Source of the DNA: Bremerella volcania
GTDB taxonomy: Bacteria > Planctomycetota > Planctomycetia > Pirellulales > Pirellulaceae
Assembly (NCBI RefSeq): GCF_007748115.1
Contig: NZ_CP036289.1
Span: forward strand, 2,294,001-2,358,000
Length of the DNA: 64,000 nucleotides
Direction: 5' to 3'
The translations under genes were made by a program, and so were the position numbers. The notes beneath the pieces are model-generated. The model was not told the origin of the DNA, did not search any database, and was given only the letters and a program-made list of their open reading frames with translations. Shown piece after piece: positions 53,793-58,877 of this stretch. The number at the start of each line of letters is the position of its first letter. Position 1 is the first letter of the stretch.

Positions 53793-54608
53793 TCAATCCT
53801 GCCCTAATTCTTTAGAACGCTCTGCCGCGGCCGAAATCGCGTCGATAACTGCCCCCCGGAAGCCCTTTTTCTCGAGCTCATGCACGCCTGCGATTGTTGT
53901 CCCGCCGGGGCTGGTCACGTTGTCTTTCAGCGCCGCGGGATGCTGCCCGGTCGCCAAAACCATTTCGGCGGCACCCTTTACGGTTTGGGCTGCCAACTGT
54001 AGCGCCACCGCTCGCGGCAAGCCCTGCCGGACGCCGGCGTCGCTCATCGCTTCGATCATCATGTACACAAACGCCGGGCCGCTGCCTGAGAGCCCGGTCA
54101 CCGCGTCCAGTTGCTTTTCGGGGACCTGAACCGCAATGCCGGTGGCTTCCAGCAGCGTTTTGGTGAGCGTGACGTCTTCGTCCGAGATCCCTTCGTTTGC
54201 GGAAAAGGCGCAAGCCGAAAGCCCCACCAGGCACGGCGTGTTGGGCATCACGCGAATGATCCGCTTGGTGGAAAATAGCGAGTTTAGCTTGTCTAGCGAA
54301 ATGCCGGCCGCAATCGAGATCAACAGGCAGCTACCAGGGACTTTCGTCAGCGACTTGGCCGCGTCGGCCATCATCTGCGGTTTGACCGCAAGGATGACGA
54401 CGTCGCTCTGGTCGATCACCTCCTGGTTGGACGCCGTGGTCTTCGCGCCGGAAATCTCTTTCGCGAAACGAGTTCGAGCTTGCTCGAAGGGATCGGCGGC
54501 CAGGATGTTCGCCGCGGGTACGCCACCACGAGCGACAAACCCATGCGCCATTGCCAGTGCCATTTGCCCGGCACCCAAAAAACCGATGCGGGGTGAATTC
54601 GTTGACAT
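53793..54608 (-). CDS. proC: pyrroline-5-carboxylate reductase
   Basis: This 271-residue enzyme carries out the last step of proline synthesis, reducing pyrroline-5-carboxylate with NAD(P)H. RIGFLGAGQMALAMAHGF is the Rossmann loop, VVILAVKPQMM follows, and VTGLSGSGPAFVYMMIEAM and VTSPGGTTIAGVHELEKKGFRGAVIDAI are the C-terminal signature. The start is the ATG at 54608; the TTG before it is less likely. No other proline genes are near. Length is normal. Confidence 0.96.
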   Translation of the reverse strand: MSTNSPRIGFLGAGQMALAMAHGFVARGGVPAANILAADPFEQARTRFAKEISGAKTTASNQEVIDQSDVVILAVKPQMMADAAKSLTKVPGSCLLISIAAGISLDKLNSLFSTKRIIRVMPNTPCLVGLSACAFSANEGISDEDVTLTKTLLEATGIAVQVPEKQLDAVTGLSGSGPAFVYMMIEAMSDAGVRQGLPRAVALQLAAQTVKGAAEMVLATGQHPAALKDNVTSPGGTTIAGVHELEKKGFRGAVIDAISAAAERSKELGQD

Positions 54609-54781
54609 CAATGCTTCCTATTCTCTTGGTAAGTTGCCGTCACTCTAAGTCATATCGGTTTGCGGGACAATCGGCATGCATGCTGGCACCGGGTCAGAAA
54701 ATGTTCAAATTGACCTGGACACGCACCGGCAAAGTTGCAACTATCCGCCCCTGCCAAATTTCTACAGAGGGAGTCGGAGAA

Positions 54782-55162
54782 ATGATTCGTAACAAACAAT
54801 TGGTCATCTGGACACTCGTTTGCGTATGTGTGGTTTCCGTGCCGACGATGGCTTCCGCCGAGTGGTACAATCCAATGAGCTGGATGGGTTCCTCCTCGAG
54901 CAAAAAGTCGAAGGGCCCCAGCACGCTCTCGAAGATCAACACCAACACCAAAAACTTCTTCTACAAAACGGCGGACTACATGAATCCGTTCAACGACGCC
55001 GACGATCATAAGAAGAAGGAGCGATACAGCTACAACGGCGGTTATCGCGATAATAAGAAACAAAAAGAGCCCGGTTGGTTCGACTGGTTGTCTCCCGAAC
55101 CCGAACCAGGCCCACCCCAAACGGTCAGCGACTTCTTAGACCTGGAACGCGCCAAGTTCTAA
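54782..55162 (+). CDS. secreted basic hypothetical protein
   Basis: The 126-residue protein has a signal peptide (LVIWTLVCVCVVSVPTMASAEW). The mature part is rich in Lys, Ser, Tyr and Pro (SSSSKKSKGPSTL, KNFFYKTADYMNPFNDADDHKKK, WFDWLSPEPEPGPPQ). The end SDFLDLERAKF recurs in planctomycete envelope proteins, but I do not recognise the family. GAGGGAGTCGGAGAA lies before the ATG. It is divergent from proC and followed by a strong terminator. Confidence 0.72.
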   Translation: MIRNKQLVIWTLVCVCVVSVPTMASAEWYNPMSWMGSSSSKKSKGPSTLSKINTNTKNFFYKTADYMNPFNDADDHKKKERYSYNGGYRDNKKQKEPGWFDWLSPEPEPGPPQTVSDFLDLERAKF

Positions 55163-55256: not shown

Positions 55257-55425
55257 GGTCCCCTCGCCCCTTGGGGGTTAGTGTGAGGGGGCATCTCGCA
55301 AGTTGACAGCGCATGCGCGACCAGAGTTCCGATCGATAAGAACATCCATCGGCGACTCACTTCAAACCTCGCTCAAAAACCCTCACTCTAGCCCTCTCTC
55401 CACGAGGAAGAGCGGACAGCAATTC
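55257..55425. repeat. pair of degenerate REP-like elements
   Basis: GTCCCCTCGCCCCTTGGGGG with TGTGAGGGGGCAT at 55258-55294 and CCCTCACTCTAGCCCTCTC with GAGGAAGAGCGGACAG at 55380-55420 are diverged members of the 246-360 family, about 85 bases apart in inverted order. Confidence 0.6.
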
Positions 55426-56035
55426 AGGGAGGCCCGCGTTCTTTCGTGTTGCCCACGGTGGGTGCCACGCCCAAGTCCGCGTGGGCGTGTCTTGGCTTTG
55501 TGCCTGCGAGAGTGCCAATCGATACTTCTGCGGCGACCTCCTTCGCACGCCCAAGCGGACTTGAGCGGGGCACCCGATCCATCGAGCGCTGCTTGAGCAG
55601 TTTCTGCAGACGTTTCAATTCGCTCCCTTGGCGGTCGAGCACTTTCAAGTGAAACGAAACCCACGCCAGCGCGCGGTCCAACTGTTTCCCAGAGGGCACG
55701 CGGAGCCCGTCAATGATTTCGCCAACGAGAGAAACACGCTCTGGTTGCTCAGGACGTTTCGGCCGTGATGGCCGCGCTGGCCTGATCTTCTTTGGCCGAG
55801 AAGGGCGTGTCTTCGCTTTAGCAGGAACCCTACCCTCAGGCTCGGTCTCGACTGCTTCGTCCTGCGGCGAAGGATCGACCGCATGGACCAACTGACCGAC
55901 GACGTCCACTGGCACTTCCACCAGCGTCCCACAGGCCGAGCACACGAACGTCTTCCCAGCGCGCACGACGACCTGCGGTCCGCTCTCAGGCGAGAGCGAT
56001 CCGCGGCGATCCGTTTGTGCTGGGGTTGATGACAT
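55424..56035 (-). CDS. hypothetical protein with CxxC and repeat-derived C-terminus
   Basis: The 203-residue protein has a single zinc-ribbon-like CxxC (TFVCSACGTLVEVPVDVVG, residues about 28-46). A Pro/Arg/Lys-rich linker with RPSRPK repeats follows, then helices (LDRALAWVSFHLKVLDRQGSELKRLQKLLKQ). The last 50 residues (RSSPLGRAKEVAAEV...RHAHADLGVAPT) are encoded by a stretch that contains an inverted repeat. This suggests an inserted intergenic element that altered the end of the protein. Only one CxxC is seen, so metal binding would need a dimer. Family unknown. Confidence 0.6.
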   Translation of the reverse strand: MSSTPAQTDRRGSLSPESGPQVVVRAGKTFVCSACGTLVEVPVDVVGQLVHAVDPSPQDEAVETEPEGRVPAKAKTRPSRPKKIRPARPSRPKRPEQPERVSLVGEIIDGLRVPSGKQLDRALAWVSFHLKVLDRQGSELKRLQKLLKQRSMDRVPRSSPLGRAKEVAAEVSIGTLAGTKPRHAHADLGVAPTVGNTKERGPP

Positions 56036-56496: not shown

Positions 56497-57888
56497 ATGT
56501 CGGATTCACCTGTCAATCGTATTCCTTCCATCTCACAGCTGATGGAACTGCGGCCGCTGAAGGACCTGGCACATAAGGTTTCCAGCAGCACGGTCGCCGA
56601 GGGCGTGAAAGCTTACTTGCAGCCGTACCAGAAGATGGCCATGGAGGCCGCCCCGACGCTGCCGTATGCGTCGCTGCAGAGCCTGGCCAGTGAGATCTCG
56701 GATTGGATTCTCGGTCAGCGCGGACTGAGCCGGCCGGAGGTGATCAATGCGACCGGGCAGGTACTTGGGGCCGACTTCCCCACCGGGCCGATCGCCGAAG
56801 AAATTCTCGTGCAGGCGCATGCCCGGCGGCATGATTACCGGCAAGCGACTGCCCAGGAAAACTACCGCCAGGCGATCGAGCAGCTGTTGTGCGAGATGAC
56901 CGGCGCCGAAGCGGCGCTGGTCGTCAGCGATCGCCAGGCAGCCGTCTATCTGTTGGCGCAAGCACTGAGCGGCCAGAAGACGCTCGTACCGCGTTCGCAA
57001 ATGTCGGCGACGTTCGACCGGATCGCCGTGCCGAAGCTGCTGGAAGAAGCCGGCGTGCAGGAAGTAGGATCGAGTAATGCGATCGACCTGGCTTCGCTGG
57101 CAGGCGAGATCGAATCGAGCGCCGAGAATCTGCTGTGGCTCGACAAGACGAACTTCTCAGTCAGCGGCGCGAACGTCGTTCCGCCGACGCTCGAAGCAAT
57201 CGGCGCGTTGAAAACATCAGGCGTGTCGCTGTGGGCCATGCTGGGGGTGGCTGGGCTGTTGCCCGATGAAATCCATGAAGACCTAGGTCTCTGCAGCGGG
57301 AAGCAGGCGCTGGAAGCTGGGGCTGATGCTGCACTTGTCGGCGCGGGCTTTCTGCTGGGAGGCCCTGGCTGCGCGATCGTGTTGGGGAAAGCGGAGTGCG
57401 TGTCGAAGTTGTCCAAGCTGCCGATTGCCCAGTACTTACAGGCACCGCCAGCGAGTCTGGCGGAGTTGGAAGTGGCGCTGCGGATTCATCAGTCCGGCCA
57501 GCGCGTTGACGATCGCATCCCGGTGATGTCGCTTCTGTCGACGTCGGAAGAGAACTTGGATCTTCGCGCGACGCGGCTGGCCGATCAGCTCGCAGTTTCG
57601 CCCTGGATTGCCGAAGCGGTGACGGGTTCGGCCGAGACGTTCGTCCTGCCAGGAGGCATCAAGTTGCCCAGCCGACACGTAACGCTCAAAGCCGCGCCGG
57701 ACGCCGCCGATACGCTGCAAACTCAGCTGCAAGGTTTTCCTGCGGTGGCATGTTGGAGCCAGAATGCCGAGGAAGTCGTACTCGATTTGCGGACGTTATT
57801 CCCCCGTAATGATGCCCAGTTGGTGAGCAAGCTGGTGCCAGAAAATAATACCATCGAGGGGGGCGATAGGGGAAATGCCGAAAAATAG
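56497..57888 (+). CDS. SelA-like protein lacking the PLP lysine
   Basis: This 463-residue protein is related to L-seryl-tRNA(Sec) selenium transferase over its full length. The N-terminal domain begins IPSISQLMELRPLKDLAHKV; VINATGQVLGADFPTGPIA parallels VINATGVVLHTNLGRAPL of SelA. LLCEMTGAEAALVVSDRQAAV matches the active-site helix; LGLCSG replaces the DLGSGS region. The key SelA segment GDKLLGGPQAG reads GAGFLLGGPGCA here, so the Schiff-base lysine is Phe285 and the Asp before it is Gly. It should not bind PLP covalently. No other selenium genes are in the window. It may be an adaptor or a new function. Sequence identification is by motif memory only. Confidence 0.8.
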   Translation: MSDSPVNRIPSISQLMELRPLKDLAHKVSSSTVAEGVKAYLQPYQKMAMEAAPTLPYASLQSLASEISDWILGQRGLSRPEVINATGQVLGADFPTGPIAEEILVQAHARRHDYRQATAQENYRQAIEQLLCEMTGAEAALVVSDRQAAVYLLAQALSGQKTLVPRSQMSATFDRIAVPKLLEEAGVQEVGSSNAIDLASLAGEIESSAENLLWLDKTNFSVSGANVVPPTLEAIGALKTSGVSLWAMLGVAGLLPDEIHEDLGLCSGKQALEAGADAALVGAGFLLGGPGCAIVLGKAECVSKLSKLPIAQYLQAPPASLAELEVALRIHQSGQRVDDRIPVMSLLSTSEENLDLRATRLADQLAVSPWIAEAVTGSAETFVLPGGIKLPSRHVTLKAAPDAADTLQTQLQGFPAVACWSQNAEEVVLDLRTLFPRNDAQLVSKLVPENNTIEGGDRGNAEK

Positions 57889-58037: not shown

Positions 58038-58877
58038 ATGCTTCGAGCGGTTGCCATGATGTTCGTGCTGGTCTTGCCCATGTGGGGGCAAGCGCAGGAA
58101 CTGCTCGTCCCGCATCAACATCACGAGTGGGCCAGCTTTCCTGAAGGCTCGTGGAAGCAGGTTCGTCAGGTAACCGAAACGTTCAAGGAAGGCGAACTGG
58201 TTTCGTCGATGACGACCACGCTGACCATTCGCTTGAAGGAAGTGGGTAAGGACTACATTGTCCTGGAACGGGAAGCCAAGTCGGAAGTGAGCGGCCAGGT
58301 TTTCGAGAAACCGATCCGCGAGTTCCGCAGCGGGCTCAACGGGCAGAGCGGAGCGCAGCGCGTTCGCATCACGCCCGGAGGCGAGCAGAAAATCTCGATT
58401 CTGGGCAAGCCGTACACTTGCGAAGTACGTCAGATGGAAGTCTTGGGCGAGCCGACGAAGATCACTGGCAAGGTCTTCTACAATGCCAGCACGCCTCCGT
58501 ACATCCTGCGGCGCGAACACACGTTCACGCAGGAAGGAGCCGACGCTCCGCAGAAGGAAATGGTTTCGGAAGTGGTCGCACTGAACAAGCCATACCCGGT
58601 GCTGACCGAGATCAAAACGGTTGCGTTCATCGTGCAGAAGACGACGGCCACCGACGAGACGACCGAAACGGTCGAGGCCCAGTGCACCGAGGTGCCAGGC
58701 TTTGTAGTCGGCACGTGGATGACCGCCTACGACGCCAGCGGAAAGCTGAAGTCGAAGACGACTGTGCAACTGTTGAACTACGAGGTCGCCGCCGAGACCA
58801 CCAACCCAACGGCCACCAAGACCGGCCTCTTCCGGAACAAGCGTCAGCAGCGACGGCTGTTCGACGACGGCAACTAA
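58038..58877 (+). CDS. secreted hypothetical protein
   Basis: The 279-residue protein has a signal peptide (RAVAMMFVLVLPMWGQAQE). The mature part is a set of beta strands with repeating TxTL and ExR patterns (TTLTIRLKEVGKDYIVLEREAKSEV, GEQKISILGKPYTCEVRQMEVLG, KTVAFIVQKTTATDETTETVEAQ). This suggests a lipocalin- or LolA-like open barrel (inference). The end is basic (FRNKRQQRRLFDDGN). Family not recognised. It starts at an ATG after GAGTTGTTTG. The next gene follows after 67 bases on the same strand. Confidence 0.72.
   Translation: MLRAVAMMFVLVLPMWGQAQELLVPHQHHEWASFPEGSWKQVRQVTETFKEGELVSSMTTTLTIRLKEVGKDYIVLEREAKSEVSGQVFEKPIREFRSGLNGQSGAQRVRITPGGEQKISILGKPYTCEVRQMEVLGEPTKITGKVFYNASTPPYILRREHTFTQEGADAPQKEMVSEVVALNKPYPVLTEIKTVAFIVQKTTATDETTETVEAQCTEVPGFVVGTWMTAYDASGKLKSKTTVQLLNYEVAAETTNPTATKTGLFRNKRQQRRLFDDGN

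Follow-up and report, generated by a model that had tools for sequence, protein, structure and literature searches.

A SelA-family protein without the PLP lysine, a candidate pseudoenzyme, in Bremerella volcania and other Pirellulales

Introduction

The N-terminal domain of SelA binds tRNA-Sec (PMC4607533). In the numbering of the A. aeolicus enzyme, Arg86, Arg312 and Arg315 bind selenophosphate, while Arg119 and Asp284 position two of these arginines (PMC4607533). SelA proteins are also known from outside selenocysteine (Sec) decoding. Nine homologues were reported in organisms lacking the Sec trait, and a new function was proposed for them (Zhang et al. 2006, PMC1794560). The orphan SelA of H. 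pylori (HP1513) has lost the N-terminal tRNA-Sec domain and keeps Lys285, Arg86, Arg312, Arg315, Arg119 and Asp284 (Cravedi et al. 2015, PMC4607533), and orphan SelA proteins receive no assigned function in the sections of that 2015 study devoted to them. For planctomycetes, there is a published account of Sec genes and of an operon (PMC4807772). Among the matches listed by our searches of the open-licence literature, none deals with a family of SelA proteins that lack the lysine, and the same holds for the search for SelA in Blastopirellula.

Here, we analyse a SelA-like gene found in a stretch of 64,000 nucleotides of the Bremerella volcania chromosome (hereafter the window), together with its relatives among the Pirellulales.

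Results

The gene lies at 56497..57888 on the forward strand and is an open, complete frame with an ATG start, encoding 463 amino acids. Its product scores 110.3 bits against Pfam SelA (PF03841, residues 82-434, cut-off 22.8), which places it in the SelA superfamily, and 148.7 bits against the TIGR00474 selA profile (residues 7-446, E 2e-43), below the equivalog cut-off of 267.9. The AlphaFold2 model of the monomer (pLDDT 84.9, pTM 0.77) has as top PDB matches the A. aeolicus SelA structures 3wcn and 3w1h (E about 1e-26), and its TM-score by target length reaches 0.83 (with 3wco). A preliminary description of the window had proposed a full-length SelA-like protein of 463 residues and advised a structure prediction; the intact frame, the Pfam score and the predicted SelA fold agree with it. 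The possibility, raised there, that the frame results from a sequencing or assembly error can be discarded, because, of nine genomes in the genus, eight (that of B. volcania included) carry the gene, at 61-100% identity, with zero inner stops, and with F (six copies) or L (two copies) in the lysine column. The ninth genome is 68% complete.

The former site of the PLP lysine is the motif AGFLLGGP (codons 283-290, at 57343..57366 on the forward strand). Phe285 had been assigned by eye to the Schiff-base lysine, and two methods place it in the same way: HMMER alignments to solved SelA (8uzw, 3w1h) set the F of GAGFLLGGPG opposite the K of GDKLLGGPQA, and a MAFFT alignment of 50 relatives puts Phe285 in the lysine column. 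Judged from alignment and model, the window protein is a member of the SelA family with a predicted SelA fold and without the PLP lysine. Beyond what had been noted before, and as far as the alignments tell, much of the active site is gone together with this single residue. All three selenophosphate arginines are lost (T96 at Arg86, Q312 and Q315), Gly284 occupies the position of Asp284, and the equivalent of Ser282 is also replaced; the Arg119 equivalent is kept as Arg166.

The same erosion is seen when non-redundant representatives are compared column by column, 40 of them lysine-less and 39 lysine-bearing (L245 was left out here and in the comparison of N-terminal arginines and charge). Fifty-one columns conserved at 90% or more in the lysine-bearing set drop below half in the lysine-less set. 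The column alignment that the preliminary description had called for finds K285 in 0/40 lysine-less representatives, and retention is low for R312 (6/40), R315 (7/40), R96, equivalent to Arg86 (4/39), S282 (5/38), D284 (12/40) and D248 (16/40). Another 23 columns conserved at 90% or more in the lysine-bearing proteins stay conserved in the lysine-less ones, and 8 of these 23 are glycines.

One might argue that such a protein is still a fold-type I enzyme that holds PLP or PMP despite the missing Schiff-base lysine, or that it uses another cofactor. Its fold and GGP loop are preserved, some known PMP enzymes have histidine in place of the lysine, and the four g19 copies (Blastopirellula type) have His in the lysine column. 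Yet, across lysine-less relatives the residue in this column varies freely among 13 kinds (F, L, N, H, R, Q, G, S, Y, A, C, E or P) and therefore suggests no single replacement chemistry. The loss of the active-site columns, and of about 80 residues of the PLP domain in ten copies (see below), also speaks against this explanation, to which we give hardly any credence; in our assessment of the sequences, it is nearly certain that the window protein is not a PLP enzyme.

The genome of B. volcania is one 6.5-Mb contig, 99.5% complete, with a single SelA match. Neither SelB nor SelD was found over cut-off in the whole genome. The best tRNA-Sec match has 43.8 bits, against a gathering score of 47, and the two best tRNA-Sec-like places are tRNA-Ser according to ARAGORN, which called tRNA-SeC all three controls taken from Sec-positive relatives. 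The 64-kb window contains no tRNA genes. The survey of tRNA-Sec, SelB and other SelA that had been recommended thus yields neither of the first two over cut-off and one SelA match only; by these profile searches, the genome is without a known route to selenocysteine. It has two dense clusters of tRNA-like genes, several of them low-scoring (G000:C1:726497-730101 and 3314592-3315242); degenerate tRNA clusters are mentioned for planctomycetes in the published account of their Sec genes (PMC4807772).

For comparisons across genomes, we defined Sec machinery as SelB over cut-off or a tRNA-Sec match scoring at least about 62 bits. A threshold of 47, the Rfam gathering score, is too permissive, as 39 of 60 relatives pass it, and all three matches checked at 49-51 bits (G041, G025, G037) are tRNA-Ser by ARAGORN. 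A genome of the same family (G010) has a tRNA-Sec scoring 65.8 bits and, over cut-off, a SelD that carries an in-frame TGA; it yielded neither a SelA match nor a SelB over cut-off, possibly because of an assembly gap.

We searched two overlapping samples, 60 relatives and 196 genomes of the order. With alignment A1, 126 order genomes matched, the lysine column being left unread in 16; over both samples it was read in 129 Pirellulales genomes. The search of planctomycete proteomes proposed earlier gave a lysine-less copy in 70 of these 129. Lysine-less copies only are found in 57 genomes, among which 10 have just a divergent far-group copy and one a poorly aligned copy (L268), and 55 of the 57 are without Sec machinery. 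Lysine-bearing copies only are found in 59, of which 54 have it. At least 13 genomes carry both kinds, a lower bound since several second copies are unread, and 13/13 have Sec machinery. The link of lysine status with Sec machinery is near complete: the machinery is present in 2/57 lysine-less-only genomes versus 67/72 with a lysine-bearing copy (Fisher p 6e-28, a value that overstates the association, since shared phylogeny means that genomes do not count as independent). Among the five genomes that have a lysine-bearing copy and lack Sec machinery are G208, with SelB at 227.8 bits, just under the cut-off, and G091, which is 70% complete. The two lysine-less-only genomes with Sec machinery (G196 and G205) may simply be missing a SelA.

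Within the order, lysine-less copies are spread over families f1, f2, f7 and f17. The core clade (see below) is represented in 46 of the 57 lysine-less-only genomes and in 10 of the 13 with both kinds, which also include two with a far-group copy (G139, G143) and one with L245 (G187); some copies outside the core are very divergent. The presence of Sec machinery in 13/13 genomes with both kinds might suggest that the lysine-less protein is a regulatory or structural partner of true SelA, in a mixed oligomer, in Sec-positive cells. But 55 of the 57 lysine-less-only genomes are without Sec machinery, and we find this explanation exceedingly improbable.

A scan of named genomes gave no relative when the single window protein was the query. 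With alignment A1 it gave 83 matches, of which 80 loci were kept, 75 lysine-bearing and from several phyla, and 5 lysine-less. All five of the latter are planctomycete: Blastopirellula sp. NORP48, B. marina DSM 3645, Aeoliella straminimaris and two MAGs. The suggestion that the protein would represent a separate family if conserved across planctomycetes thus holds at the scale of one order, the Pirellulales, where a lysine-less clade is supported.

The phylogenetic analyses excluded the lysine region from the alignments. On a tree of 137 proteins, 69 without the lysine and 68 with it (five fragments dropped), lysine status needs two changes only. The rooted trees used chosen representatives and outgroups from other phyla (62 rows and 44 rows), far lysine-less rows being left out. 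In them, the core lysine-less proteins are a clade nested among lysine-bearing planctomycete SelA (SH-aLRT 96; 22, 24, 16 rows), recovered in the careful 44-row tree at 94/96 (bootstrap/SH-aLRT), where the outgroup split is weak (63/29). L245, with Gln at the lysine, represents a separate later loss within the lysine-bearing clade. This protein (G187, family f7) groups with a subgroup of family f17 (L233, L236, L237, L239, L240, L243) whose lysine-bearing SelA have SADK or STDK instead of SGDK.

Two proteins, L017 (G041) and L042 (G025), keep the lysine and join the lysine-less clade (98/90), and their genomes are without Sec machinery. This suggests an order of events in which Sec decoding would have been lost first and the lysine later. 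A third lysine-bearing SelA, L024 (G037), was observed along with these two in genomes without SelB or SelD over cut-off, where the tRNA-Sec-like place checked is a tRNA-Ser only, and L024 has His at the Arg86 equivalent. From their sequences, L024, L017 and L042 look like intermediates of an orphaned SelA.

These trees must be interpreted with some care, since the monophyly of the lysine-less core rests on fast-evolving, long-branch sequences. Several independent losses of the lysine, following separate losses of Sec decoding, might have been united by long branches, in line with the separate loss in L245 and with G037, whose lysine-bearing SelA, in the absence of Sec machinery, has His at its Arg86 equivalent. 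Still, two changes suffice for 137 rows even with the lysine region excluded, and 94% of bootstrap trees recover the core set as a single clade, so that we consider multiple independent losses unlikely.

The organisation of the locus points to its ancestry. In five Sec-positive genomes (G029, G047, G155, G115, G156) the gene order is tail protein, selB, selA, exported beta protein; variants are found in G207, where the last gene is inverted, and in G072, where it was not found nearby. The window has the same flanks around the selA-like gene, and no selB. Upstream, at 54782..55162 (forward strand), lies a gene for a small exported protein with a conserved C-terminal tail, whose homologues stand directly upstream of selB in Sec-positive relatives. 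Directly downstream, at 58038..58877 (forward strand), lies a gene for an exported all-beta, weakly LolA-like protein; both signal peptides were judged by eye. In G048 and G049, which lack Sec machinery, the flanks are present with no trace of selA or selB between them. Because these two genomes have no trace of either gene there while the window keeps a lysine-less selA, Sec loss can apparently end either in the loss of selA or in its retention without the lysine.

The beta protein is directly downstream, on the same strand, of 35/69 lysine-less versus 18/63 lysine-bearing genes with room for it. Where both kinds occur together (13 genomes), it stands behind the lysine-less copy in six cases (G097, G118, G201, G209, G212, G215) and behind the lysine-bearing copy in none, a reading that is limited in G016, where the lysine-bearing copy ends at a contig edge. 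This pattern would fit an old locus persisting beside a later-acquired selA. The beta protein also occurs in six relatives without a SelA match in the 60-relative search, two of which (G049 and G054) show a weak far SelA match in the 196-genome search. Its homologues are found in 33 of 60 relatives; the window copy has no Pfam family and shows weak structural matches to the LolA superfamily (E 3e-4 to 7e-4, TM-scores < 0.4).

Homologues of the upstream protein occur in 101 of 196 order genomes and are diverse except for a C-terminal tail of the type TVxEFMxxxR. The tail motif, which was chosen after the sequences had been seen, was counted in 25/55 core lysine-less loci with room, 1/13 far loci and 1/62 lysine-bearing loci, the regions of the last reaching about 1.5-2.5 kb upstream and hardly past selB. 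We had considered the tail protein and the LolA-like protein as specific partners of the lysine-less protein in a dedicated operon. This was dropped because the tail protein is present in 101/196 genomes and the gene maps show both as flanks of the ordinary selB-selA locus; on these maps they are ancestral neighbours.

Further upstream, proC (pyrroline-5-carboxylate reductase; 53793..54611, reverse strand) belongs to a family that adjoins lysine-less selA in 25 genomes versus 1 for lysine-bearing selA, in upstream regions of unequal length. A tail-specific protease family, one member of which is named by Pfam, is near the gene in 26 lysine-less versus 0 lysine-bearing genomes, again in unequal regions. 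It is speculation that this protease might cut tails of the TVxEFMxxxR type. Between the tail protein and the selA-like gene, on the reverse strand at 55424-56035, is an open reading frame for a basic, proline-rich protein of 203 amino acids, with a homologue only beside L068 (G001) among the compared loci; it may be a recent insertion.

We then asked which parts of the lysine-less protein are constrained. The best-conserved large part is the N-terminal domain, corresponding to the tRNA-Sec-binding domain of SelA (codons 5-78; 56509..56730, forward strand). Residues 5-78 are better conserved than residues 79-445 in 21/21 disjoint close pairs of lysine-less proteins versus 3/32 lysine-bearing pairs (Fisher p 6e-12); this comparison excluded 4 fragments with the lysine and 13 lysine-less rows that were far, fragmentary or poorly aligned. 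The conservation profile of lysine-less proteins is highest at residues 5-104 and 345-364, that of lysine-bearing ones at residues 85-104, 145-204 and 305-324. The second conserved spot (codons 345-364; 57529..57588, forward strand) includes N353, R357 and R360 and overlaps a helix of the model (351-365); N353 and R360 are invariant in 40 lysine-less representatives and have 46% and 56% conservation in lysine-bearing ones. By these statistics, constraint has moved away from the catalytic core and towards the N-terminal domain and a single C-terminal helix.

The old contacts of the N-terminal domain with tRNA-Sec have probably changed, because R38 and R45, present in 39/39 lysine-bearing representatives, are kept in just 15/40 and 18/40 lysine-less ones; the window protein has K38 and Q45. 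The net charge of the domain is slightly more positive in lysine-less proteins (+1.3 vs -0.2). Of seven lysine-less proteins scanned, three (L010, L036, L209) exceed the cut-off of Pfam Se-cys_synth_N (PF12390); the window protein, L256, L044 and L048 stay below it, though the N-terminal region aligns.

At least 10 copies (10 of 18 tabulated) have nothing aligned to window residues 161-240, and thus have lost about 80 residues of the PLP domain. All belong to the genus-level group g99, and in each a single open frame still encodes the N-terminal domain as well as the C-terminal part. Within the genus, dN/dS is 0.08-0.15 overall (seven pairs; synonymous sites are near saturation in wider pairs); the lowest values mostly fall in the N-terminal half, and the highest in residues 157-242 (6/6 computable pairs). 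By this measure, the window protein is under purifying selection.

The fastest evolution is seen in a part of the catalytic domain, and nearly all lysine-less-only genomes are without Sec machinery, as would be expected of an unselected relic of a lost Sec pathway, decaying and on its way out. This is at odds with the low dN/dS in the seven pairs and with the absence of inner stops in the 8 same-genus copies. It is also at odds with the spread of lysine-less copies across families f1, f2, f7 and f17, with their retention beside a lysine-bearing copy in 13 genomes, and with G048 and G049, whose flanks enclose no trace of selA or selB and indicate that removal is possible. We regard a relic as very unlikely.

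Discussion

The preliminary description had called the protein a likely pseudoenzyme. The replacement of the lysine and of the Arg86, Arg312, Arg315, Asp284 and Ser282 equivalents, the lack of Sec machinery, and the ten relatives without about 80 residues of the PLP domain strengthen this view. We propose that an ancestral Sec-insertion locus would have consisted of the exported tail protein, selB, selA and the LolA-like protein, and that selB was lost from it, leaving the window gene as the surviving selA. Its active site has been erased while the protein is kept under purifying selection, and it presumably works as a non-catalytic binding protein. This is the simplest reading because the N-terminal domain is the most protected, the catalytic residues are lost and part of the PLP domain can be deleted. 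It is highly probable, in our view, that the protein is retained for a selected non-catalytic role, and quite likely that the whole account, a neofunctionalised SelA pseudoenzyme surviving from a Sec locus minus selB and acting as a non-catalytic binding protein, is correct.

What might it bind? By descent, RNA would be the likeliest ligand, with a protein ligand as the main alternative; that the role is RNA binding is a serious candidate with the odds leaning somewhat against it. The frequent loss of R38 and R45, the only slightly more positive charge of the N-terminal domain and the window protein's score below the Se-cys_synth_N cut-off speak against RNA. We put forward more tentatively still, as a possibility that we would not bet on, that SelA became an RNA-binding protein whose N-terminal domain, formerly specific for tRNA-Sec, now serves another tRNA or RNA and whose PLP domain is a scaffold, partly deleted in one lineage, the protein being kept beside lysine-bearing SelA too (both kinds coexist in 13 genomes, and in 10 of these the lysine-less copy belongs to the core clade).

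With PLP chemistry a very unlikely function, attention should turn to the N-terminal domain and to one helix. The family may show in nature how an enzyme becomes a binding protein, and successive stages can be recognised: the lysine outlasts Sec decoding, is then itself lost, and part of the PLP domain finally disappears. For annotation, 'selA' in these planctomycetes need not mean selenocysteine use, and the lysine column, SelB and tRNA-Sec together make a quick check for the Sec trait in Pirellulales.

Compared with functional SelA (A. aeolicus, 3W1H and 8UZW), the window protein is alike in being a full-length homologue with the predicted fold, an aligned N-terminal domain and flanking genes as at selB-selA in five Sec-positive relatives. 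It is unlike it in lacking the PLP lysine, the selenophosphate arginines, a score at equivalog level and genomic Sec machinery. DgaE-type and MJ0158-type proteins (TIGR01437, TIGR03576) are fold relatives outside Sec synthesis, and 7lc0 and 2aeu are among the structure matches; neither profile matches the window protein at E 0.001, and they match some other members weakly, e.g. L010. By their names, these relatives would be PLP enzymes. The homologues of Zhang et al. 2006 (PMC1794560) are similar in standing outside Sec decoding, and loss of the lysine is not reported in the part of that article describing them. The pattern of H. pylori, N-terminal domain lost and PLP residues kept, is absent from the window protein, which shows the reverse: it keeps the N-terminal domain and loses the residues listed for HP1513 (PMC4607533) except the Arg119 equivalent. 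Orphan SelA proteins were already known; the window protein would be a pseudoenzyme of the SelA superfamily that lacks the marks of a working SelA.
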